Positions 16,798 to 35,897 of a stretch of DNA of 64,000 bases are shown piece after piece. This DNA is from Nocardia sp. NBC_01730 (GTDB taxonomy: Bacteria > Actinomycetota > Actinomycetes > Mycobacteriales > Mycobacteriaceae). The translations under genes and the position numbers were made by a program. The stretch lies in NCBI RefSeq assembly GCF_035920445.1, contig NZ_CP109162.1, positions 62,001 to 126,000 on the forward strand. The letters run 5' to 3'. The first letter of the stretch is position 1, and the number at the start of each line of letters is the position of its first letter. The notes under the pieces are model-generated. The model made no database searches. It saw only the letters and a program-made list of their open reading frames with translations, and had not been told where the DNA came from.

Positions 16798-17643
16798 GTG
16801 CGGCCTACTCCCTGGCAGAAAAGAGAAGCTCCACATGAGCAGGTCGACTCATCCGGTGGGGTGTCGCGACGTCGATGGGATGACGCACGGCCGCGGGCAG
16901 TGCTCGGCGGAAAGCGGCTGCAGAGCGCGCTCGGCGGAAAGTGGGGTTACCTTTGCGCTGCGGTCGGCTGCATCATTACATTCGTCCTGTTGTTCCAACC
17001 ATGGCTGACCACAGACACCGGCGGGACCGACGGTTCGATTCACGTGAACGCCTTCGGGCGGCTCCACGTGACTACCTCCTTGGTAGAGCTCTGGGCGCAA
17101 TCACCACCGCCCGCCTCGACGGTCAGCGGGGTGTGGGGCATCCTCACCAGCGTCGCGATCGTCGTTGTGGTCTGCAGCGTTGCGGTCAATAGCATGGTCC
17201 GCACCGAGGCGCTCGTTCGCGTGGCGACCGTCGCCACGGTCCTCGTTGCGGTTTTCACGATCGCCACCGTGGTCCACCTCCGCAGTAGAGGCGACGAACT
17301 GACCCAAATGGTCTCGTTCGGGACGGCCCGAGATCCGGGCACGCAAGTCGGATTGCTGCTCCGCTGGGCTCGGGGCCATGGCACCTATCCGGTACCAGGG
17401 CTTCGCACGGTTTCCTGGGCCACCGCCAGTCTCACTTGGTATGCGTTCCTCGCCGGCGCGATTTCGCTGGCTTCGGCTATGGCCGCTGTCACTCAGTGGA
17501 TGAATGGACGCAAGAGTCGCCCACACCGACAGAGTCTCGAACTCTCCCGCAGCCGATCCACCATCAGTGCTTCGCCGGCTCCCCGGACCTCGTCGGTCTG
17601 GACCGGCGAGCCGGTTCGAAGGCGGGGTATTCGCTCAGGATAA
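16798..17643 (+). CDS. Four-helix membrane protein, unknown function
   Basis: Four hydrophobic segments are visible: WGYLCAAVGCIITFVLLF, GILTSVAIVVVVCSVAV, VATVATVLVAVFTIATVV and WYAFLAGAISLASAMAAV. The loops after the first and third are the longest and probably external; the C-terminal tail is basic and Ser-rich. The start is uncertain: GTG 16798 gives the longest frame and GTG 16861 is possible. It precedes the prenyltransferase-terpene synthase fusion on the same strand with a 333-base gap, so co-function is only a suggestion. I recognise no family. Confidence 0.6.
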   Translation: MRPTPWQKREAPHEQVDSSGGVSRRRWDDARPRAVLGGKRLQSALGGKWGYLCAAVGCIITFVLLFQPWLTTDTGGTDGSIHVNAFGRLHVTTSLVELWAQSPPPASTVSGVWGILTSVAIVVVVCSVAVNSMVRTEALVRVATVATVLVAVFTIATVVHLRSRGDELTQMVSFGTARDPGTQVGLLLRWARGHGTYPVPGLRTVSWATASLTWYAFLAGAISLASAMAAVTQWMNGRKSRPHRQSLELSRSRSTISASPAPRTSSVWTGEPVRRRGIRSG

Positions 17644-17976
17644 GCGCGGGCACCTACGCGGTGTTCTCCGATCCATCGCGTGCCGGTGAGCGGGCGTTCG
17701 CGGCAACACCGAGCTTCCGTGCTGCGGCGGACGCGCCGACTCCCATGGATGGCAAAGCGTCTTTCCACGCTGAGTGGACATGCCCGTCGCCGAAGAGCAG
17801 CCACTGAATGCCAGTCTGAGGTACACCCCAAAGCAGCGCCGGGTCGCGCGATCCTTACCGCTGTGACGGTGACGTCAAAATGGGCCGATACCAACATTTT
17901 TCGCGTGCGGGTGGTATCAAATTTCACTGATCAACGGTGTGTAGATGACCCGACGTACCCAATCAGGAGCGAGCGC
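17644..17976. other. Leader region of the terpene synthase fusion
   Basis: No gene is supported. The last 120 bases are A+T-richer and contain a TGACGTCA palindrome at 17870-17877, so the promoter of the fusion gene probably lies here. Confidence 0.4.
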
Positions 17977-19983
17977 GTGTCAGGTGAAATCGATTCGGCT
18001 GTCTTCCCGCATCTGGAGGCGGACCTGGACCGCGTCCGTGACGTTCTCGGACCCGTACGGTTCGAGGACAGGCCAGAGCTGACCGCACTCACCGACGAAG
18101 GGCCTGACACCTCTCGCCGGCTGGTCCGGCCCATGTTGACGTTGCTGTCGTTCTACCTGCTCACCGATCCAGCGGCCCCGGCCGACGACCGTACCGTGCG
18201 CGCCGCTGCTGGGGTGGAGTTGCTGCATCTGGGCTCGCTCTACCACGACGACGTCATCGATCACGCCTACCAGCGCCGAGGCCGCCCCAACGCCAACGCA
18301 GTATGGGGATCGCACATGGCCGTACTGGGTGGAGACGCCGTGACGACCGAGGGCATGCGCATACTGATCGAACTCGGCCAGTGCGAAGGGCTCGCGGGGA
18401 CGACCGCGGGTGCGCAGATGTGCGCGGGCATGGTGATCGAAGCCGCCGACCTCTACGTGGCCTCCCGCAGCGAGCAGTCCTACCTCGACGCGATCGACGG
18501 CAAAACGGCGGCGCTGCTCTCGCTGGCATGTCGGGTGGGCGCGATGCAAGCAGGACGACCCGAGGGTGAAGAAGAGGCGGTGGCCCTGTTCGGTCGCTAC
18601 TTCGGGCTTGCCTACCAGCTGTATGACGACATCCTCGATCTGACCTCGACCGCCGAAGAAATGGGCAAGCCCGTCAACGCGGATCTGCGCGAGGGCATCT
18701 ACACCCTTCCCGTGATCCGCGCGGCTGCCCGCGACCGGGACCTTGCCAACCTGCTGCGTGGCAGAATGACGCGTGAGCAAGCCGCACGTGCCCACGAACT
18801 CGTCATCGCCTCCGGCGCCGTGGACGAAGCACAAGCGGTGGCCGAGGAATTCATGGACGAGGCCGCTGGTCAACTCGCCGCCCTGCCCGTTGACCCACGC
18901 GTCCGCCACGCGATCACCGCCTACGCCCGGTCCATACTCGACCGGCGAACTCCTGGTACCGCGGTCTCCCGGCAGTCGACGCGGCCATCTCGAGCCCACG
19001 GTGATGGACTCCCGCCGCAGCTCACGCAATGGGTGCGGAACTGGCTGGTGGACACCGGCCTTGCCCGCACCCCGGCCGAGGCCGACTACCACCGGTGGAT
19101 AGGAGCGGTCCAGCTCCCGGCACAGATCTTCGCCCCGGCGGACACGGCCCGTGAACAGACCGCCTTCGGTATGACCGTGCTGGCCCTTGTGTGGGACGAC
19201 CTCTTCGAGGATCCGCAGCTGAGGGACCCGGAAGCCGTGACCGCGCTGAGGCGTGGTCTGGTGGCAATGCTGCGCCAGGACCCGCGGACACCGTCGAGGC
19301 CGGGCGCGATCCCGACGGCGTGGGCGAGTCTATGGCCGCGCGTGTGCCAGGGCCGCAGCACCCGCTGGCAGGAGCGGTTCCGCGACCACATCGAGGAGTG
19401 GTTCGAAGCCGCCGAACGCGAAGCGCACCATCGCATCAACGGCTACATCCCCTCCACGGCCGACTGCCTGTCGCTGCGGATGGCGATCGGTGCGCTCGAG
19501 CTCAACATCGCCTGCGTGGAGGTGCGCCAGGACCGGGAACTGCCATCGATGCTGCGCAGACACCCCGTGATCCGCCGTCTCGAGGAACTGGCCTTCTCAA
19601 TGGCTCTCGCGGAGAACGACCTCGCAGGGTTGGATCAGGACGAGGCAGACCAAGTCCCCTACAACCTGGTCAGGGCAATCCGTCACGAGACCGGCTGCAC
19701 CCGCCGCGAAGCCATCGAGCAGGTGCAGCGCCAAGTGGCCGAGCAACGCGCCCAGATCGACGAGATGATCCGCTACCTCCCCGCCCTCTTCCGCATGATC
19801 CCCGGCCTGTCTGGCCACGGAAAGGAATACGTACCGATCTTCGAGATGATGACAAACGTGGTGCACCGAGCACCTCAGACCGATCGGTACACGCAAACCT
19901 CAGCTTCCGCAGCACCGGACTTGGAACGCTTGCGCCGTGAGATCTACCTCCCGGCCGACGAACCGGCGCCTACCGCGCCGTAA
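17977..19983 (+). CDS. Bifunctional isoprenyl diphosphate synthase - class I terpene synthase fusion, 668 aa
   Basis: GTG 17977 follows AGGAG by 8 bases. Residues 1 to about 325 are an all-alpha trans-prenyltransferase: first Asp-rich motif LYHDDVIDHAYQRRGRP (Asp91-Asp95), DGKTA, second Asp-rich motif YQLYDDILD (Asp217-Asp221), then a typical C-terminal helix bundle. A Ser/Arg-rich linker (about 325-345) leads to residues 346-668, which read as a bacterial terpene cyclase: VWDDLFED (Asp407-Asp412), Arg501 (SLRMAIGA) exactly 46 residues before the NSE-like NDLAGLDQD (Asn547...Asp555), and Arg637-Tyr638 about 83 residues after it. These spacings match the pyrophosphate sensor and RY pair of known cyclases. 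The NSE motif is altered (Gly for Ser/Thr, Asp for Glu). Predicted role: make a polyprenyl diphosphate and cyclise it. Product and chain length are unknown. Confidence 0.88.
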   Translation: MSGEIDSAVFPHLEADLDRVRDVLGPVRFEDRPELTALTDEGPDTSRRLVRPMLTLLSFYLLTDPAAPADDRTVRAAAGVELLHLGSLYHDDVIDHAYQRRGRPNANAVWGSHMAVLGGDAVTTEGMRILIELGQCEGLAGTTAGAQMCAGMVIEAADLYVASRSEQSYLDAIDGKTAALLSLACRVGAMQAGRPEGEEEAVALFGRYFGLAYQLYDDILDLTSTAEEMGKPVNADLREGIYTLPVIRAAARDRDLANLLRGRMTREQAARAHELVIASGAVDEAQAVAEEFMDEAAGQLAALPVDPRVRHAITAYARSILDRRTPGTAVSRQSTRPSRAHGDGLPPQLTQWVRNWLVDTGLARTPAEADYHRWIGAVQLPAQIFAPADTAREQTAFGMTVLALVWDDLFEDPQLRDPEAVTALRRGLVAMLRQDPRTPSRPGAIPTAWASLWPRVCQGRSTRWQERFRDHIEEWFEAAEREAHHRINGYIPSTADCLSLRMAIGALELNIACVEVRQDRELPSMLRRHPVIRRLEELAFSMALAENDLAGLDQDEADQVPYNLVRAIRHETGCTRREAIEQVQRQVAEQRAQIDEMIRYLPALFRMIPGLSGHGKEYVPIFEMMTNVVHRAPQTDRYTQTSASAAPDLERLRREIYLPADEPAPTAP

Positions 19984-20274: not shown

Positions 20275-21141
20275 TCAGGATTCCGAGGCCTCCACGTTGT
20301 GCTCGTCTCCGTGTTCGTCCGCGGCGAGCTCCGCGAAGAATTCCGCCAGGGGATCCGCGCAGAGCTCGGTGGGAGCCTCGTCGGCAGTCGAGAAGACTTT
20401 CGGTAGGGCGGCCAGATAGTCGCGGACCGCCGGGGAGAAATTCCTCTCGTCCCGCTCCTCGGAGACGGCTTCGAACCACGCGGTGTTCTCGACCCAGAAC
20501 CGGTACAGGAACCGCTCGAAGTCGTCGGCTACGAGGGTCAGTGCGGAGTTCAGCTGCGCAACGGGCGGCAGGGGTTCGTCGTCGCCGTACCGTTCGCCTG
20601 CGGCGACGACCTGGTGGGTTCCGTCGGACAAAATGTGCAGGTACCACAGAACGCAGTCCTGTGAGTCGGCGAGAATCCGCACGAGGCGGTCACCGTTGCC
20701 GAACGGACCGGGGATCACCGAGGCGCTCACGTCCCAGTAGCAGCCGGTGCACGACGGGACGGCCTGCTGCAACTCGGGTCGGTCGAAGAAGGCGGCGAAA
20801 GCGGCCGGGACCTGGTGCCGCAGTGCTTCCGGCAGAGGGTCGACGCCCATGCTTGCACGGACCTCGCCCGGTACCAGCCAGCTGAACGTGCCGTCGAAAA
20901 GATGATCGGGCAATGCCGGAAGCTCGCCGACCGGGAAGCTGCGGTAGGTGCCGACGCACGGGCGATACAGGCCGAGGTCGGTGCCGATCCAACTCATTCG
21001 GAGATCCATACGGGGCACGGTAACGTCGATCTCCGACACGATCCGGGCCTGGGAACGGCAAGGGTGGTTCTGATCGCGAATCCGGGGCCGCTTCGTCCAG
21101 GGGACCTCGATGCCCACCAGTGATATCGCATCAGTCTTCAT
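20275..21141 (-). CDS. Hypothetical protein, possibly SUKH/SMI1-like
   Basis: The soluble 288-residue product is rich in Trp and acidic residues. The central portion (FSWLVPGEVRASMG, DCVLWYLHILSDGTHQVV) loosely recalls SMI1/KNR4 (SUKH) proteins, many of which are toxin immunity proteins. This is a weak resemblance and I would call it hypothetical. ATG 21141 is chosen because it overlaps the stop of the decayed recombinase upstream (ATGA at 21141-21138), implying translational coupling. Met at 21009 (MDLRMSWIG) is an alternative. The C-terminal 15 residues are strongly acidic. It may be a passenger of the recombinase element. Confidence 0.6.
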   Translation of the reverse strand: MKTDAISLVGIEVPWTKRPRIRDQNHPCRSQARIVSEIDVTVPRMDLRMSWIGTDLGLYRPCVGTYRSFPVGELPALPDHLFDGTFSWLVPGEVRASMGVDPLPEALRHQVPAAFAAFFDRPELQQAVPSCTGCYWDVSASVIPGPFGNGDRLVRILADSQDCVLWYLHILSDGTHQVVAAGERYGDDEPLPPVAQLNSALTLVADDFERFLYRFWVENTAWFEAVSEERDERNFSPAVRDYLAALPKVFSTADEAPTELCADPLAEFFAELAADEHGDEHNVEASES

Positions 21142-22080
21142 GTACCTGGTGACACGATCCGCAACGGCACCCCGTCTGCGGTGTCGGTCTCCATGTCCAG
21201 GAGCTGGTGAATGCCGCCGCGCTGACGAGTGGCGTAGCCCTCGCTGACCAGGGTCCGCAGATGGCCGTATTGGACCGCGAGGGCGACCAGGCCACCGGGT
21301 CGACGGGCGATGTGCCATGCCAACCTTCGCCGGAACCGGGCGGTGCCGATATTGCCGTCAGGATCTGCTGACCCCAGGTTGGCCCACGATCGCGCCGGTG
21401 ATCGGGATATCGAGCGGACAACCTCCGGGATTGGTGTCGCGGTAGTGCTGCCATCGCGGGGTTTTGAGGATGCGGTGAACCTTCTCTCGCGGAGTGCCGG
21501 TGATCGCGGCGATGTAGGTCGCCGCGGCCCTGATCGGAGGGTGGTGTGCGTGGGCAGGGGTTTCCCGGTTGCTTCCAGGTCTTCGAGATAGGCGATCAAC
21601 GCCGGTGGAGCGCCCTCGGGGGTGTCGGTGACGGGTTCTGGGCGACGATGCGCCGCAGCCGCTGTTCCTCTTTCCGGGCAGCGAGGATGTCGTCGGCGAA
21701 CTCTTCGACGAACTCCAACGCCCAGATCAACAGCGGCCCCATGGTGGCCGGGCTGATCGGTTCGGTGGCGTTCTCCCTGGCGGCAGTGGCCGCGGGGTAG
21801 GTAGTCGTCGACCCTTCGATCTCCCAGGACGGGACCCGATGCGCGACCCCGGCGGCAGGTGGGGCGTGAAGGCGCTCAGGTGGGTCAGCGCGGAGAGGTG
21901 GTTCCCGTTGGTGTTGCGCGAGACCTTGCGGGTCTTGACCAGGTAATTTCCGTAGTCGGCGAGGACTTCTGTGGTTGCCTGAGCCAGTCCGGTGATCCCG
22001 CGATCGCTGAGCCAGGTCGCCGCCCCGAATCCGGTGACCGCAACCGCTGCACCCGAAGCGGCACCGGCTGGGAAGCTGAT
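21138..22080 (-). pseudogene. Decayed tyrosine recombinase (TnpA-type), several frameshifts
   Basis: Pieces in all three minus frames follow in order. At the 5' side is a core-binding domain (WLSDRGITGLAQATTEVLAD, YLVKTRKVSRNTN). Next, one frame over, comes a helical block (MGPLLIWALEFVEEFADDIL). Then come a YIAAITGTPREKVHRIL piece and finally a catalytic-domain-like stretch RFRRRLAWHIARRPGGLVA with VQYGHLRTLVSEGY. At least three shifts and loss of the N-terminus (junction near 22070) make it non-functional. It faces the plus-strand recombinase remnant head to head, both cut at the same place. Confidence 0.65.
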
Positions 22081-22984
22081 CGTGGAAATCCTCATCGCCT
22101 GCGGACTGCGGCTCAAGGACGCCCGCACCCTGCCGTTCGACTGCGTTGTCCGCGATGCCGACAACAATCCCTATTTGGCCTGGCTCAACCGCAAGATGGC
22201 CGATCGCCCAGCGTTCTTCCCGCTCTCGGAAGAGTTGGCCGAGAAGATCCTCACCCAGCAGCGAGCGGTGCTCGACCGGTTCCCCGGGGGATCGCCGTGG
22301 TTGTTCCCGGCGATCCACAGCAACATCGACGGCAGCCGATACGCCAGTGGCACCCGACTGCGTCAGCAGTTGGAGCGATGGCTCGAAGAATTGGACCTCC
22401 TCGATGAGCACGACCGGCCGATCCGGGTCACGTTCCACCAATTCCGGCACACGCTTGGGACCAGGCTGATCAACGCCGATGTCCCGCAACCGGTGGTCCC
22501 GGCGTTGCTCGACCATATGTCCCCGGACATGACCGCGATCTACGCTCGCTTGCACAACGAAACACTGCGTGAGCACTGGCTCAAGGCGGTGAAGGTCAAT
22601 GCCGACGGCGAACCCGCCACGATCACTGCCGATCATCCACTCGCCGACGCGGCTTGGGCGAAGCTGAGCATGGTCCGCGCGAAAGTGACTCTGCCGAACG
22701 GATACTGCGGCGCCCCGGTCCAAACCGACTGCGAATACGCCAACCCGTGTCTGGACTGCCGATTCTTCATCACCACCACCGAATTCCTCGGCCAGCGTCG
22801 CCGCCAACGCGACGACACCGCGCGCATGATCGCCGATGCCGAAGCCGCCGGGCACAGGAGGGTCGCCGAGAAGAATACTCGCACCCTGATCAAGCTCGAC
22901 ACCATTGTCGGAGCACTCGAATCCGTGCGGGACGGCCGGATCGTGGCCGGAGGAAGGGTCGAAGAACTCGATGCCGCTGGCTGA
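22073..22984 (+). pseudogene. 5'-truncated tyrosine recombinase (TnpB-type), catalytic half intact
   Basis: Homology-like sequence begins abruptly at LIVEILIACGLRLKDARTL after the junction near 22073; the 27 codons before it are antisense to the other recombinase. The catalytic signature is present: the first Arg in CGLRLKDAR, HQFRHTLGTRL and LDHMSPDMTAIYARL. A Cys cluster near the end (GYCGAP, CEYANPCLDC) is shared in position with the other recombinases in this window. The usual several-hundred-residue N-terminal part is missing. Its stop overlaps the start of the next small gene by 14 bases, so it once led an operon. Confidence 0.75.
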
Positions 22985-28029: not shown

Positions 28030-29286
28030 GTGATCGAATCCGAGGAGAACACCCGCGATCTCGCGGGTCTGGTGGTGCCCCGGTCTGGTCGGTTGATAGC
28101 CACCGGCGAGGAGTCCGAGCCGTATCGGCTGCTGGACAGCCGCGGGGCGGTGGTCGCCCCGGTGGAGGTATTCCTGCGAGAGTTGCTGGCAGCGGGACGG
28201 GCGGCGCCGACGCTGCGCTCATATGGCATGGATCTGTTGCGGTGGTGGCGGTTTCTACAGGCCATCGATGTTGGCTGGGACCGCGCAACTCGGGTCGAGG
28301 CCCGCGATTTCAGTTGCTGGATCCAGCTGACGGTGAAGCAGCGCCGTCGGGTCGATCGTTCCGATGGGGCTGGTTGGGCAAAGCATAGGGCAGCAGAAGT
28401 CAATTCAGTCAGCGGTAAGCCCGCTCCAGGAGACGGATACGCCCCGGCGACCGTGGCGCATTCGGAGACTGTGCTGCGGACTTTCTACGATTTTCACCGC
28501 GATGCCGGAAGTGGGCCGATTCTGAATCCGTTCCCGCTGGATCCGTCGCGGCGGTCCCGTCGGGCGCATGCGCATCGCAATCCGATGGATGGGTGGCCGC
28601 GCGAGCGAGTGGGGCGTTATCGGCCGAAGGTTCGGCATCGGATTCCTCGCGCGATTCCTGATCACCGGTTCAACGAGTTGTTCGCGGCGCTGGGGTCGCA
28701 TCGGGACCGCGCGTTGGTGGCGTTCTGGATCTCGACGGGGGTGCGAGCGTCGGAGCTGCTGGGGCTTCGGCATTGCGACGTCGACCCGGGCCAGCAACTG
28801 ATCACCGTAGTGCGCAAGGGAACTCGCGCTTGCCAGCAGGTGCCGGCGTCGGCGGATGCGTTCGTTTGGCTGCGGTTGTATCAGGAACAACTACACGGCC
28901 AGGTCCCCCAAGGTCGGATCCAGCCGGTGTGGTGGACGCTTCGGCGGCCTCGGCGGCCGTTGAAATATCACGCGGCGCACCGGATGTTCGAGCGCGCCAA
29001 CGCAGTCCTCGGCTCGGACTGGACCTTGCACGATCTCAGGCATTCGGCCGCGGCCAGAATGGCCCGCGACCCGCAGCTGACGTTGAGCGACGTGCAGCTG
29101 GTCATGGGACATGCGCACCTGTCCACCACCGAAATCTACCTGACCCCGAACAGCGACGAGGTGATCGCCGGAGTCCTGGCCCATCATGCCCGCACCGCCG
29201 AACAGCGCGACAAACCGGCGCCACCACCACCGGCGCCCGGTTACGACCCGCAGACGTTGAGCGTGTTGTTCGGAAGGAACCTGTGA
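28030..29286 (+). CDS. Tyrosine recombinase, first gene (TnpA-type)
   Basis: The 418-residue product has an N-terminal SAM-like core-binding domain (TLRSYGMDLLRWWRFLQAID) and a catalytic domain with the expected residues: Arg in WISTGVRASELLGL, HDLRHSAAARM, and GHAHLSTTEIY containing the His and the nucleophile Tyr. GTG 28030 follows the element end by about 60 bases. Its stop overlaps the GTG of the next gene (GTGA). Paired recombinases of this kind act together in Tn554-like transposition. Confidence 0.9.
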   Translation: MIESEENTRDLAGLVVPRSGRLIATGEESEPYRLLDSRGAVVAPVEVFLRELLAAGRAAPTLRSYGMDLLRWWRFLQAIDVGWDRATRVEARDFSCWIQLTVKQRRRVDRSDGAGWAKHRAAEVNSVSGKPAPGDGYAPATVAHSETVLRTFYDFHRDAGSGPILNPFPLDPSRRSRRAHAHRNPMDGWPRERVGRYRPKVRHRIPRAIPDHRFNELFAALGSHRDRALVAFWISTGVRASELLGLRHCDVDPGQQLITVVRKGTRACQQVPASADAFVWLRLYQEQLHGQVPQGRIQPVWWTLRRPRRPLKYHAAHRMFERANAVLGSDWTLHDLRHSAAARMARDPQLTLSDVQLVMGHAHLSTTEIYLTPNSDEVIAGVLAHHARTAEQRDKPAPPPPAPGYDPQTLSVLFGRNL

Positions 29287-31763
29287 ACTCCATCGTCAAG
29301 CACAGCACCCGCAAACCCCTGACCGCCGCTGCGTCGGTAGCCGCCGAGCAGCGGCTGCGCAATGGTCAGCTGCGCACCGAATTTCCGCCACGATCGATCG
29401 AGGGATGGTGGCCGCACACGGCAGCCACGACCGAGCAGGTGCAACAGCGGTTGACGGCCCCACCGTTCGCCCCTACAGCGAAAACCACTCGGGGCGGGCG
29501 ACGACGCGGGGTGGCCAAGATACTGCGCTGGCTGTCGTCGTTCCCAGGTGAGACCTGGCAGGAGCGTTGGCAGGTCAGCGGCGCCGAGGAGCATCCGGGA
29601 GCAGGATGGATCGAGCTGCCGATGGCGTGGCTGGCAGCACACGGCGGAACCACCTCCTACGACTCGACCGATCTGACGTCCGGGCTGCTCATGCTGATCT
29701 GCGGAGATGTGCTCCGCCCCGGCATGGGTTGGATGCTTACCCGCACGCACCGATATCTCACGACGATGATGGCGCAGGTCAGGGATCCGAACGGGTTCGC
29801 CCGGCTGGCAGAACTGGCCGCCGCTGAACCGGCCAGTTCCCGGGCTGACGCGAAGATCTCGGCGACTCGCATCGCCGTGATCCTTGCCTGCAAAGGCGGG
29901 ACCATCGCTGACATCGTCGTCGGTGACTGCGCGGAACTGGTCGACACCATGCGCCGAGTCCAGACCCGCGGCGGACAGAAGAAAGTCGACTTCTATCTCC
30001 GGTTGCGCGCTATGGGCATCTTCGGCGGACACTCGCCGCACAGCATCCGCGCGTTCGGGTTGGCCGGTGGACGGCTGACGATCGAGCAACTGGTCGACCG
30101 CTACCGCATCCAATGCCGACCGATCCGAGACCTGCTCATCGACTACCTGCGTGAACGACAGCCGTCTCTGGACTTCTCCAGCCTCGACACGGTCTCGAGG
30201 ACGCTGGCCGGCCTGTTCTGGGCCCGCATCGAGGCACTGTCCCCCGGCATCGACACTCTGCAGATCCCGACGGAGGTGATGCGCGATTGGAAAGACGGTC
30301 TCGGCACCGTCGAACGCACCACCATCAGCAGCACTGGCGAGCGGATCAAAGTGCCGGTGCCGCGGCTGAGCCTGAAAGACGAACTAATCCGGGTGCGGGC
30401 CCTCTACCTCGACATCGCGCACTGGGCTGTCGAGGACCCCGCTCGTTGGGGGCCGTGGGTCGCGCCCTGCCCGATCACCAGCGCCGAAATTCAGAAGGCC
30501 AAGGAACGCAACCACCGCAAAGCCCGCATGGACCAGCGTACCCGCGAACGGCTGCCCGTCTTGCCTGCCCTCGTGGCCACCGTCAACGACCGGCGTCTCG
30601 CAACGGCTGGGCTCCTGGCTGCAGCACAAGCGGCACAACCCGGAGCGATCATCGACGGAACAGGCGGGAAACTTCGAAACGCCATAGTTCCCAAAGCGAT
30701 CGGGCGATTCATCTGGGCTGAGGAAGTCACGACTGGTAAACGGCGCAACCTGTCCTATGAAGAAGAGGAAGCGTTCTGGGCGTTCGCGACCATCGAGGTC
30801 CTGCGCCTGACCGGCATCCGCTGCGAGGAACTACTCGAACTGTCTCACCACAGCATCACCGAATACCGGCTGCCTAGCACAGGCGAACTCGTCCCGCTGC
30901 TGCAGATTGCACCCTCGAAAACCGACACTGAGCGCCTCCTGCTGGTCAGCCCCGAACTGGCCGACATTCTCAGCACCATCGTCCAACGCTTACGCAACCC
31001 GGACGGCTCCATCCCGCTGGTCGTCTCCTACGACGTCAGGGAGAGAATCTGGAACCCGCCCATGCCGGTGCTGTTCCAGCGCGGGATCGGCAACGAACGC
31101 CGCGCCTTCACCCCAACCGCGATCCGGAAACTGCTCATCAACGCGCTCGCCGCGACCGACCTCACCGACCCCAACGGCGACCCGCTGATCTTCAGCCCTC
31201 ACGATTTCCGGCGGATCTTCGTCACCGACGCCATCATGAACGGCCTGCCACCGCACATCGCACAGGTCATTTGCGGGCACAAAAGCATCGATACAACCAT
31301 GGGCTACAAGGCCGTCTACCCTGCGGAAACCATTGAGGCACACCGAGCCTTCATCGCACGGCGCCGGTCGGTTCGGCCCGGCGAAGAATACCGCACGCCG
31401 ACCAACGAAGAGTGGGATGCGTTCCTGTCTCACTTCGAGAAGCGGAAAGTGTCGGTCGGGACATGCGCGCGGGCATTTTCGACGCCCTGCATTCATGAGC
31501 ACGCATGCGTCCGATGTTCACTCCTGAGACCGGACCCGGCCCAACGAGCCAGGCTCGAAGAGATCCGCGACAACCTCGAAGCCCGCATCGTCGAGGCCAG
31601 ACGCGAGGGCTGGCTCGGCGAAATCGAGGGCCTGCAGGTCAGCTACAGCGGCGTCAACGACAAACTCGCCCAGATCGACGCCACGCTCCAGCGAACCACA
31701 GCAGGGACCGAACTCGGCATCCCCGGATTCGATGCCACTTTCGGAAGGACTGCTGCCCCATAG
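29283..31763 (+). CDS. Tyrosine recombinase, second gene (TnpB-type), 826 aa
   Basis: This is the long partner recombinase: a large N-terminal region of unassigned helical domains, then from about residue 500 a catalytic domain with Arg in RLTGIRCEELLEL, FSPHDFRRIFVTD, and ICGHKSIDTTMGYKAVY. After it comes a Cys/His cluster (TPCIHEHACVRC) and a coiled-coil-like tail (LEEIRDNLEARIVEARREG). GTG 29283 overlaps the upstream stop by 4 bases. It is intact, unlike the equivalents at 22073 and 32511, and provides the template for reading those remnants. Confidence 0.9.
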   Translation: MNSIVKHSTRKPLTAAASVAAEQRLRNGQLRTEFPPRSIEGWWPHTAATTEQVQQRLTAPPFAPTAKTTRGGRRRGVAKILRWLSSFPGETWQERWQVSGAEEHPGAGWIELPMAWLAAHGGTTSYDSTDLTSGLLMLICGDVLRPGMGWMLTRTHRYLTTMMAQVRDPNGFARLAELAAAEPASSRADAKISATRIAVILACKGGTIADIVVGDCAELVDTMRRVQTRGGQKKVDFYLRLRAMGIFGGHSPHSIRAFGLAGGRLTIEQLVDRYRIQCRPIRDLLIDYLRERQPSLDFSSLDTVSRTLAGLFWARIEALSPGIDTLQIPTEVMRDWKDGLGTVERTTISSTGERIKVPVPRLSLKDELIRVRALYLDIAHWAVEDPARWGPWVAPCPITSAEIQKAKERNHRKARMDQRTRERLPVLPALVATVNDRRLATAGLLAAAQAAQPGAIIDGTGGKLRNAIVPKAIGRFIWAEEVTTGKRRNLSYEEEEAFWAFATIEVLRLTGIRCEELLELSHHSITEYRLPSTGELVPLLQIAPSKTDTERLLLVSPELADILSTIVQRLRNPDGSIPLVVSYDVRERIWNPPMPVLFQRGIGNERRAFTPTAIRKLLINALAATDLTDPNGDPLIFSPHDFRRIFVTDAIMNGLPPHIAQVICGHKSIDTTMGYKAVYPAETIEAHRAFIARRRSVRPGEEYRTPTNEEWDAFLSHFEKRKVSVGTCARAFSTPCIHEHACVRCSLLRPDPAQRARLEEIRDNLEARIVEARREGWLGEIEGLQVSYSGVNDKLAQIDATLQRTTAGTELGIPGFDATFGRTAAP

Positions 31764-32510: not shown

Positions 32511-34614
32511 GTGCTCGTGGATACAGGGTGTGCCATAGGGGCGGACGCAGCTGCCGAGCTCGATGCGGCGCCGACCGAAATGCTCTGCGAAATCGGCGAG
32601 TTCGGCGGCGGTGGGTGCGCGGTATTCCTCGGTGGGCCGTTCGGCTCGCCTGCGTTGGATGAATTGCTGGTAGCGAGCGAACACTTCGTGGGGATAGATC
32701 GCGGTGTAGCTCATGGTGGTATTGAGGTCTTGGTGTCCGAGCAGTTGGGCCGCGATGTGGACGGGCAGGCCGTTGTTGACCGCGTCGGTGGTGAAAAGAC
32801 GTCGGAAGTCGTGCGGAGTGATCTGCGCGGCGAGTCCGGCGCGTTCGACGGCGTGGCCGAGGTATTCGCGCAGTGTGCCGGAGTTGAAGGTGCGCGGGCG
32901 TCCGGCCAGCCGGTATGAAACAGGTAAGGCATCGGCTGGCTCCAGGAGCGTTCGTGCTCGTCGCGGCAGCTGACCAACGCGATCGCGCCATCGTCGCCGG
33001 CGACGCGCGCGATGACCTTCGCCAGCACGGAGGCGAGCTCGGGGCCTGCCGGGATGACACGCTCGGTGTCGGTCTTGGACGGCGCGATCTGCAGCAGCGG
33101 CACGATGGTGCCGTTGGGTTGACGGTAGGGCTGGATCGAGTGGTGGGGCAGCTCGAGCAGCTCCTCGATGCGGATGCCGGTGTGGCGCAGCACCTCGACC
33201 GTCGCCCAGGACCAGAACGCGTCGTGCTCAGCCGATTCCGGGTAGATGGTCGCGCCGTTGTCGGTCTGCAGCCGCGGGCGACTGCTGGAGCCGTAAGCGG
33301 TAGATGGCCGCGTGTAGGTGCACACCCGTGGACCTCGAACTGTTCGCCGGGTGCGCTGGCGCGGGCTAGGCGCAGTAATTCTGTTGCGGCGTCGTAATGC
33401 TGGCGGACGAGTGTCGGCAACACGGGCGCGAGTTCGCGGATGCGGGCATGGATGCGTGCGGTTTCCGAGCGGCGTTCCCGCGGCAGGACCCGGGCGTCTC
33501 GGCGGGTCACTGGTGACGGCGTGGCCCACCGCTGCGGCTCGTCGGTGGCCCAGTGGTTGATGTCGAGGTAGAAGCATCGCACCGCCAGAACTATCTCACC
33601 GGGTCTCTTGCGGAGCGTGCCGTCCGGCGACGTCATCAGCCGTTGTTTCCATGCTTCGATCTGGGCTCGGGTCAGGTGGTGGGTGTCGATGCCGGGATGG
33701 TGGGCTTCGATATCACCCCAGAACAATCGGCAAAGCCGATGGGCGAGTTGAGTGAACGACGTGTAGTCCATGTCCGGACGCCGCTCGATCAGATATTCGG
33801 TTAGCAGCCAACGCATCGACGCGCTGGCGATCTGATACTGGGCGACGATCTCGACCGGCGTGCGCGGCTTTATGGTGAGCAACGCCTGGAACTCGGCGGG
33901 CCCGTCACTGAACAGGCCGATTGCCCGACCACAGTGGTAGGCCGTGGCGCAGGAGACCGTGTTGTTCGTGCCTTTGGCCTCGATGACCGCGGCGCGATAG
34001 TCCAGCAGATCACCATAGGTCAACTCCGGCAGCGGTTTCCCGGTGCGGATCGACATGCGGCAGAAGTCGATCAATGTGGTGCCGGTCTTTTCGGCCTTGC
34101 GGCCCAGGCTGTGGGAGGCCGCCGCGAGTTGGGTGAACAGCTCGGGTGTCGTGCTCCTCGCGCCAAGTTGACCAGAGCCGTTTGGTCCACACGCTCAGCA
34201 GGAACGCATAGCTCGGTCGGATCGCGCCGCAACACACCATCGCACTCAGCGCGGCGCTGAACTGGTTGCGCTGGTGGTGATTCGACGCGAAATCGTCGAG
34301 CCAGCCGCCTCCGTCGGCGTGCCGGTGGCCAGCCACCGGGCCTGGTCGGTGTCCCCGGGGAACTGATCGACCCAGTCGAACCAGTCGTGCAGCACCGGTG
34401 TGTAGTAGTTGACCGGATTCAGGCGGGCCAGGCTCGCGGGCAGCCGGACGGCGAGTATGCCCAGAGATTGATCGAACAGGCGCCTGCGGTGGGCTGGAGT
34501 GATCGGGTGCTCGTAGAACGGGTGAGCGGGAACGAGGTGACCGCCCGTGGATCCGGCGGTGGTCTTGACCGCTCTTCCGGGAGCGCGGGCGTGGGTGGCG
34601 GTGGAGTCGGTCAT
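32511..34614 (-). pseudogene. Dead TnpB-type recombinase of the older element (frameshifted, 3' end displaced)
   Basis: From ATG 34614 (overlapping the stop of its partner, ATGA) the protein is readable through four frame changes near 34300, 34150, 33320 and 32910. The stretches include NPVNYYTPVLHDWFDWVDQF, FSAALSAMVCCGAIRPSY, IDFCRMSIRTGKPLPELTYG, LRHTGIRIEELLELPHHSI, PHDFRRLFTTDAVNNGLPVH and GHQDLNTTMSYTAIYP. It closes with TPCIHEHAC at the border of the inserted element. Its last 75 codons lie at 27951-27727. It is homologous in layout to the intact gene at 29283. Confidence 0.8.
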
Positions 34615-35897
34615 GCCAGCCCCGGGAACAGCACAGCCATCGCGGCCGGGTCGTATGAAGGATCGGGAGCTGGCTCGGCCGGTGCCGGGCGAGCGTAGTG
34701 CTCGCGCATCTTGCGGACCAGATTATCGATGCGTGCCCGTGCGTGGATTTGGGTGCTTGCGAGGGATCGGTGCCGCATCAATCGTTGGATGTCGGTGATC
34801 AGCAGGTTCGGGTCGTCCATGAGCCGCATCGCGTAGGTGTGTCGCAGGTCGTGGAATGTCACGTTCGCACCGAGCCGCTCGTTGGCGCGGTTGAGTACCT
34901 GACGCAATGCCCAATACGTCGAAGGACGCGTCGGGCGCCGGATCGTCCACCACAGCCCGGTGACCCCCTCGGAACCTAGATGCTCAGTCTCGGCCAGATA
35001 GGTCGCCAACCACAAGAACGCGTCCGGCGGCGCGGGAACCCATTCCAGCTCACGATGGCCTTTGCCTTCGAGCGCGACCAGCTGGCGGCCGATGTCGATG
35101 TCCTCCAACCGCATTCGCAACAACTCATCCGCCCGCGGACCCGAGCTCACCGCGATCGACACGATCGCCCGATTCCGATTGCTCGGCAGAGCCGCGAAGA
35201 AATCGTCGAACACCGCATCCGGCAACGCCCGGGGTGCTTTGGTGCGGGCGCGCTGCCGATATGGAGCCCGCCCATTCGGCGGCGCCGGCTCGATCGGGCT
35301 GCGATGAGACCCCGCCCGATCCATATCGTGACTACGTTGCAGGGGAACAGGATTGACCACCGGACCGAACCCGGTCAGCAGGTGATAGTCATAGAACATC
35401 TTCACCGCCGACAGCGAGTGATTGATCGTCGAGGCCGCATAGCCTTCCGGAAACGTCCGCTTACCAGTCACCGGATTCACCGACCCGGCCAGACTGCCGT
35501 CGCGGCGACGAGCCCGCCGCTGCCGATTCTTCGCGACCCGCGACCACAACACGAAGTCCCGAACATCATGTCGCGCAGCCTAATTCCGCGTCACCTCCAC
35601 TGCGGCGAGGAACCGGAACCAACGCAGCAAGCTCAACAAATACGACCGACAGGTGGTCGCGGGGTAGTCGCACGCTACGAGGTGGCGGACGAACTGGCAC
35701 ATATGCTCATCAACGCGGCCATCGACATCAACCAAGCGGGCAGGCTCCAGCGGATCAGCGGTGACTACCACCGAGCCAACCTGCGCCACCACAAGCGAGT
35801 GCACATCCCGGCTCTCGGCCAGGGTCCAACGATCAACAGACACGAGCGGACAACCTGCCACACCCGGCCGGGAGCCGAATTGCTCGGCCCCCGACAT
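34611..35897 (-). pseudogene. Dead TnpA-type recombinase of the older element (in-frame TAG)
   Basis: From ATG 35897 the N-terminal domain (YPATTCRSYLLSLLRWFRFL) runs to an in-frame TAG at 35582-35580. The same frame then continues as ARHDVRDFVLWSRVAKNR, through SSGPRADELLRMRLEDID, FHDLRHTYAMRLM and MRHRSLASTQIHARARID, to TGA at 34611. The Tyr position appears lost (TQIHAR where TEIY stands in the intact homologue), a second inactivating change. A 313-codon frame from 35552 remains open but lacks the N-terminal domain. Confidence 0.75.

Follow-up and report, generated by a model that had tools for sequence, protein, structure and literature searches.

Fungal chimeras that carry a trans-prenyltransferase and a class I cyclase in one chain (PTTSs) were called unique to fungi in a 2021 survey (PMC8307374, excerpted text). 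For PaFS, the excerpted report places the cyclase at the N-terminus and the prenyltransferase at the C-terminus, separated by a linker of ∼70 residues, and describes the prenyltransferase domains as forming the core of the oligomer (PMC8190136). Among open-licence PubMed Central papers, no bacterial prenyl synthase–cyclase fusion of such a kind was found. The 64 000-nucleotide stretch of Nocardia sp. NBC_01730 analysed here (the window) was the subject of an original prediction, made from the sequence alone, of a single-gene fusion of a prenyl diphosphate synthase and a class I terpene synthase, in an order opposite to that of the fungal chimeras, that would be a self-sufficient terpene-making enzyme in an actinomycete.

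Domain architecture of the fusion gene

The window holds one intact frame of 668 codons in which PF00348 matches the N-terminal half (E 2e-47, 161.8 bits against a Pfam cut-off of 27), where two DDxxD motifs are present, followed by PF19086 on the C-terminal half (E 9e-34, 117.4 bits against a Pfam cut-off of 23.7), bearing out the proposed single-gene fusion. The prenyltransferase-first order was also correctly predicted, and is the reverse of that in PaFS as its excerpted report describes it. The features of the gene are as follows.

17965..17969, + strand: AGGAG ribosome binding site, 7 bases 5′ of the start codon, kept in the upstream alignment
17977..19983, + strand: fusion gene, prenyl diphosphate synthase–class I terpene synthase, 668 aa (profiles, fold, homologues)
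17977..18942, + strand: N-terminal trans-prenyl diphosphate synthase domain, residues 1–322
18247..18261, + strand: first Asp-rich motif DDVID, residues 91–95 (homologue alignment)
18625..18639, + strand: second Asp-rich motif DDILD, residues 217–221 (homologue alignment)
18943..19011, + strand: inter-domain linker, residues 323–345 (low pLDDT, low identity)
19012..19941, + strand: C-terminal class I terpene synthase domain, residues 346–655
19195..19212, + strand: metal-binding motif 1 DDLFED, residues 407–412 (homologue alignment)
19477..19479, + strand: pyrophosphate sensor Arg501 (homologue alignment)
19615..19641, + strand: NSE-type motif NDLAGLDQD, residues 547–555 (homologue alignment)
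19885..19890, + strand: Arg-Tyr pair 637–638 (homologue alignment)

The class I terpene synthase set is complete (DDxxD/E motif, sensor Arg, NSE motif and RY pair), and fold comparison agrees with Pfam for both domains, the best solved-structure matches of the cyclase domain being sesquiterpene synthases. The original prediction had also proposed a structure prediction of the two halves and their interface; both halves match the expected folds, whereas the placement of the domains relative to each other is without confident prediction (pTM 0.58). In the predicted structure, the linker of ∼23 residues is disordered, with pLDDT <50 at residues 324–344. An assembly or sequencing error that merged two adjacent genes, in favour of which nothing was found, carries a vanishingly small probability and is ruled out by 150 other homologous fusion proteins. 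Frames neighbouring the gene at 20275–21318 (347 aa) and 16798–17643 (281 aa) of the window are without a Pfam match, and three phage-integrase family genes lie downstream of the fusion (window 21992–22984, 28773–31763 and 34611–35552), possibly marking a mobile region.

Conservation of catalytic residues

We aligned 151 fusion homologues from a set of 168 proteins, leaving out P0002 (the window protein again), P0165 and lengths outside 555–760 aa. Asp91 and Asp92 are present in 150/150 homologues with a letter at the position, and Asp217, Asp218 and Asp221, together with Lys176, Gln214 and Lys231, in 151/151. Asp407 and Asp408 of the cyclase domain are likewise found in all 151, the sensor Arg501 is Arg in 150/151, and position 637 is Arg in each of the 149 with a letter there, followed at position 638 by Tyr (123), His (22), Phe (2) or Asn (2). 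The altered NSE triad had originally been taken as a hint of unusual metal binding or product; Gly551 and Asp555 are indeed real, but they are common across the 151 homologues and not peculiar to the window copy. Asn547, Asp548 and Asp555 occur in 151/151, such that the motif ends in Asp throughout, and position 551 is Gly in 97, Ser in 27 and Thr in 27. As the triad is thus family-wide, it says little in favour of unusual metal binding. The linker is 25–28 residues long in 130/151 homologues (residues 321–346 in the window protein), with a mean pairwise identity of 36% in the 151, against 71% for the first domain and 58% for the second.

Lineage and chain length of the prenyl synthase domain

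In a tree that includes six fusions, their prenyl synthase domains form one clade (support 100/99), the sister of which is the stand-alone L022 of Streptomyces chattanoogensis (support 98/100). One such clade, on the prenyl synthase domain tree alone, favours a single fusion event. Beside L022, no cyclase was recognised by eye among the listed open frames. P0154, a prenyl synthase only, was considered as a split ancestor and rejected; it keeps fusion-like sequence beyond the linker before departing from it, and therefore looks truncated, not ancestral. The best NCBIfam model for the first half is the encapsulin cargo model NF041169, at 180.7 bits against a cut-off of 450, and a reading as encapsulin family 2 cargo was set aside on this score, far below cut-off, and on the finding that no cluster besides the ABC pair described below is shared by >4/35 regions.

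The same tree places the fusion domains among the long-chain polyprenyl synthases and away from those of short-chain type. Ahead of the first Asp motif, position −4 is mostly Ser or Ala and position −5 mostly Gly or Ala in the 151 homologues. Small residues before the first Asp motif leave room for a chain >C20, without fixing its length. The long-chain lineage of the prenyl synthase, set against the sesquiterpene-like matches of the cyclase, makes a match in substrate between the two domains no more than presumptive. Both the grouping with long-chain synthases and these small residues speak for an alternative in which one domain only acts on its physiological substrate, the prenyl synthase being a long-chain or an oligomer-holding one and the cyclase being fed from the cell pool, and the oligomer core formed by the prenyltransferase domains in the excerpted account of PaFS (PMC8190136) points the same way. 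However, the Asp motifs, Lys176, Gln214 and Lys231 are invariant or nearly so in the 151 proteins and dN/dS is low (see below), because of which a purely structural prenyl synthase domain is not expected, and we regard this alternative as improbable.

Selection on the two domains

The 45 rows of fusion loci represent 37 distinct sequences. In the Nocardia set, mean pairwise dN/dS is ∼0.22 for the prenyl synthase domain and 0.43 for the cyclase; the exporter ATPase has 0.13 and the permease, with three stop-containing sequences omitted, 0.26. By this measure, the prenyl synthase domain is under purifying selection, and the faster evolution of the cyclase fits either product diversification or relaxed constraint. 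A set of sixteen sites, picked from epi-isozizaene synthase positions and which we take to be those of the cyclase pocket, was compared with the remainder of the domain: over all pairs, dN/dS is 0.94 at these sites and 0.42 elsewhere, and over 16 disjoint pairs 0.52 and 0.29, respectively (33 sequences, without L021, L025, L106, L109 and L110; Nei–Gojobori counts on extant sequences). When random 16-site sets were drawn from the same four helices (87 sites), 4/5000 reached the pocket dN in disjoint pairs. When the set is shifted by −1, the values are 1.12 and 0.65; a shift of +1 yields 0.80 and 0.44, and one of −3 yields 1.06 (all pairs). As one-residue shifts yield similar or higher values, the signal is not specific to one helix face. 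The pocket test leans to product diversification over relaxed constraint, and diversifying selection on the pocket is partly supported only.

Distribution of the fusion

The fusion is present in 34/148 Nocardia genomes, including the host (E up to 1e-100), and in 2/295 Streptomyces genomes, where one match is identical to L019 of Streptomyces sp. CHD11. Phylum-wide, it was found in 1/396 genomes at E up to 1e-60, this being the host itself, and a class-wide search with a Microtetraspora query recovered 4/394 genomes, namely the host and three of one Microtetraspora-like genus (80–81% identity to the query). The Nocardia genomes hold 50 fusion places, among them a 352-residue fragment (G482:C53) and the broken copy of the host; up to 8 candidates were scored per genome for Nocardia, 4 for Streptomyces and 3 phylum-wide and class-wide, and copy numbers may be low. 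Microbispora and Microtetraspora fusions are 43–45% identical to the window protein. Among the matches listed, named fusions are mostly from Nocardia and Streptomyces, and the best 120 of 156 matches mostly bear the database name ‘polyprenyl synthetase family protein’, which is a naming after the N-terminal half only. The proposed actinomycete setting is thus upheld by homologues in Nocardia, Streptomyces and Microbispora/Microtetraspora, and the homologue search put forward with it reveals a multi-copy actinomycete fusion family, often accompanied by an exporter pair that is absent beside the window copy.

An ABC exporter pair beside the fusion

Open-frame clustering around 35 fusion regions identified one recurrent neighbour pair, an ABC ATPase of ∼202 aa and a permease of ∼288 aa, besides which no gene cluster is common to >4/35 of these regions.

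L010:12076-13499 and equivalents; G000:C1:7771939-7772808; convergent or in line with most fusion genes: ATPase and ABC-2 permease pair

PF00005 matches the ATPase with E 1.5e-28, and PF12698 matches the Nocardia niwae permease with 32.8 bits against a cut-off of 31.6; the Streptomyces permease is without a Pfam match. On two ATPases, NCBIfam drrA scores 122.2 and 117.2 bits against a cut-off of 312, and as the best 25 NCBIfam models for each, drrA included, are all under cut-off, the exporter substrate cannot be named. A permease match lies <3 kb from 38/50 Nocardia fusion places (a fragment only at G445:C19), 32 of them convergent just downstream (gap 42–150 bases), 5 codirectional downstream and 1 upstream. 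Counted by Nocardia genome, 33 have both genes, 1 the fusion only, 1 the permease only and 113 neither, with a Fisher p of 1e-30 that is nominal because the genomes are not independent. Two fusion genes flank one exporter pair in four genomes. Both Streptomyces genomes with the fusion among the 295 also have the pair. The Streptomyces copy L021 is without a nearby permease. The three Microtetraspora-like loci encode ATPase, then permease, then fusion on a single strand, so that the linkage survives a change of order at 44–45% fusion identity; their permeases are 37–39% and their ATPases 63–64% identical to those of N. niwae.

The remaining 12/50 Nocardia places, the window copy included, have no nearby permease. 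Neither the window copy nor its closest relatives, L089 and L097, have the pair next to them, and the same holds for four further copies. Among the 50 places, G461 is the one genome that has an unlinked copy but no linked one. In the permease-only genome, the permease match contains a stop and a stand-alone terpene synthase lies ∼1.3 kb from the pair; at one Streptomyces locus, a stand-alone terpene synthase is found beside both pair and fusion. Stand-alone class I terpene synthases adjoin the same exporter pair at L111:11489-12520 and L025:13912-14772. The arrangement of fusion and exporter pair suggests a compact make-and-export terpene cassette.

Relatives of the permease in the wider class

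Permease relatives occur in 25/394 class genomes, and of 28 permease places 20 were taken as regions, the other eight being G1007, the three Microtetraspora-like loci, the host locus and three second copies; contig ends shorten two of the 20 regions. A polyprenyl synthetase is present in 10/20 regions, a count that includes L184, although its prenyl synthase, at a distance of 5 kb from the pair, may have no connection with it. Taking 8 genes per 8.68 Mb, a prenyl synthase is expected in ∼2% of 18-kb regions (nominal p 3e-13), and as the observed frequency is far above this expectation, an exporter for terpenoid products would be the best reading of the ABC pair.

Five regions (L175, L176, L177, L179 and L182) have a frame of 733–850 aa whose C-terminal half is the prenyl synthase. 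A CrtC/AttH-like lipocalin match precedes it in four, above the Pfam cut-off in L177 and L182 and below it in L175 and L176, and the long frame of L179 has no lipocalin match in Pfam. The long lipocalin/prenyl synthase frames, at coordinates around 4.6–12.6 kb, lie directly upstream of the related exporter pair, and their prenyl synthases form a clade separate from the window fusion family, from which it follows that the lipocalin-type fusion is independent. A fusion of squalene/phytoene synthase and cis-prenyltransferase is found next to the pair in two other regions (L186:9382-11373 and L190:9698-11407). Our own cyclase profile detected a class I terpene synthase in 0/20 regions, and as a control nine left-out terpene synthases were each found by models built without them; an isoprenoid enzyme was not seen in the scanned parts of 8/20.

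Sub-threshold scores for all 25 best models of the two ATPases, and the 12/50 places lacking a permease, speak for an alternative in which the fusion is active and the ABC pair is a mere neighbour with some other role, for example self-protection or unrelated lipid transport. We consider this unlikely in view of the 33/1/1/113 genome pattern, the recurrence of the trio in a different order in a distant genus, and the prenyl synthases in half of the wider permease regions.

Copies in the host genome and the upstream element

The host genome, a single contig of 8.68 Mb, contains four fusion copies, one of them broken, plus a remnant. Apart from the window copy, these lie at 2127162, 7772893 and 7925152, the frame of the last breaking near residue 573. 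A fifth, truncated piece with the upstream element lies near 1000169 (L148:5773-6188) beside a frame that by eye is transposase-like, and a separate permease fragment is found at G000:C1:1272710; remnant and fragment suggest that copies have been gained and have decayed. At G000:C1:1808040-1809831, a prenyl synthase gene and a class I terpene synthase gene are adjacent without being fused, and offer a natural comparison for the fusion. Two conserved blocks precede the window copy.

17887..17905, + strand: conserved upstream element GATACCAACATTTTTCGCG, 71 bases 5′ of the start codon (upstream comparison)
17913..17923, + strand: second conserved upstream block GGTATCAAATT (upstream alignment), possibly the −10 side of an ECF-type promoter

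With ≤4 mismatches, the 19-base element is found 61–73 bases upstream of 32/35 fusion genes, L017, L106 and L025 being those without it, a presence that is partly by construction as the pattern was derived from the same upstream regions; 700 shuffled upstreams never came below 5 mismatches. At ≤2 mismatches, the host genome has 4 sites, one each before the remnant, the window copy and two further copies. At the broken copy, the element is matched with 3 mismatches, and a reversed control pattern gave 0 sites. The fusion copies may share regulation through this element.

The same genome raises the question of whether the window copy is an orphan paralogue in decay, with little function left or none. 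An exporter is missing from its surroundings, the frame of one sister copy is broken, a further copy survives as a remnant by a transposase-like frame (by eye), the window copy departs from the family consensus at positions 504 and 506, and its cyclase dN/dS against seven related copies is 0.40–0.98. Against decay, the frame is intact, all catalytic residues, the ribosome site and the upstream element are kept, and the prenyl synthase dN/dS against the same seven copies is 0.18–0.37, such that we assign this possibility a low probability.

DISCUSSION

We consider it likely, from comparative sequence evidence, that the window gene encodes a bifunctional prenyltransferase-then-cyclase terpene synthase, the product of which is probably exported by the adjacent pair in most loci. 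The N-terminal domain would extend DMAPP or a short allylic diphosphate with IPP, and the tethered class I cyclase would ionise and cyclise the product, with possible channelling between the domains. The adjacent DrrA-like ATPase and ABC-2 permease would then probably carry the terpene, or a product derived from it, out of the membrane, and the window copy, without an exporter of its own, could use that beside the copy at G000:C1:7772893. Such an enzyme would need only IPP and DMAPP, in agreement with the self-sufficient terpene production originally proposed.

A broader reading, which we put forward tentatively and hold to be less probable than its converse, is that the members of this actinomycete ABC-2 exporter family are dedicated to terpenes, each being encoded together with a prenyl-building enzyme of its own. 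At least two separate enzyme fusions would have arisen beside it (prenyl synthase with class I cyclase, and CrtC/AttH-like lipocalin with a different prenyl synthase in Streptosporangiaceae-like genomes), with squalene/phytoene synthase–cis-prenyltransferase maybe a third, and the window family would make diverse terpenes of C25 or longer, the product being determined by variable helices in the cyclase pocket and one variable helix in the prenyl synthase. The exporter link provides a concrete test of how terpenes move out of the bacterial membrane and a handle for finding similar gene sets, and a bacterial family with reversed order and short linker allows an independent check on whether terpene synthesis benefits from tethering.

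In comparison with known systems, the N-terminal domain finds its nearest lineage or best family models in the long-chain trans-polyprenyl diphosphate synthases, such as HepT and Rv0562, and in the polyprenyl transferase cargo of family 2 encapsulins; unlike them, the domain is here fused to a cyclase, and its best 25 NCBIfam models are all below cut-off. The C-terminal domain has the same fold and motifs as the bacterial class I synthases of isoafricanol, avermitilol, pentalenene and epi-isozizaene, whereas those are stand-alone by length and the domain here is fused, with an NSE motif ending in Asp and Gly usual at the Ser position. EutB is also a two-domain bacterial terpene cyclase, but its partner, in the excerpted description, is what remains of a reductase, lacking most of the catalytic residues, and not a prenyl synthase. 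The fungal PTTSs, such as the fusicoccadiene synthase PaFS and the triterpene synthases TvTS and MpMS, are alike in joining a trans-prenyltransferase and a class I cyclase in one chain by a flexible linker, and differ from the window family in that the latter has the reversed order, a shorter linker, a bacterial host and an exporter pair. The window family thus has the two domains in one chain of fungal-type PTTSs, and neither their cyclase-first order nor their restriction to Dikarya. It would be expected to carry out the same two reactions, and the exporter linkage is new here. By sequence and fold, the window family combines the same two folds as the fungal chimeras in a separate bacterial lineage, in reversed order and with an exporter partner.
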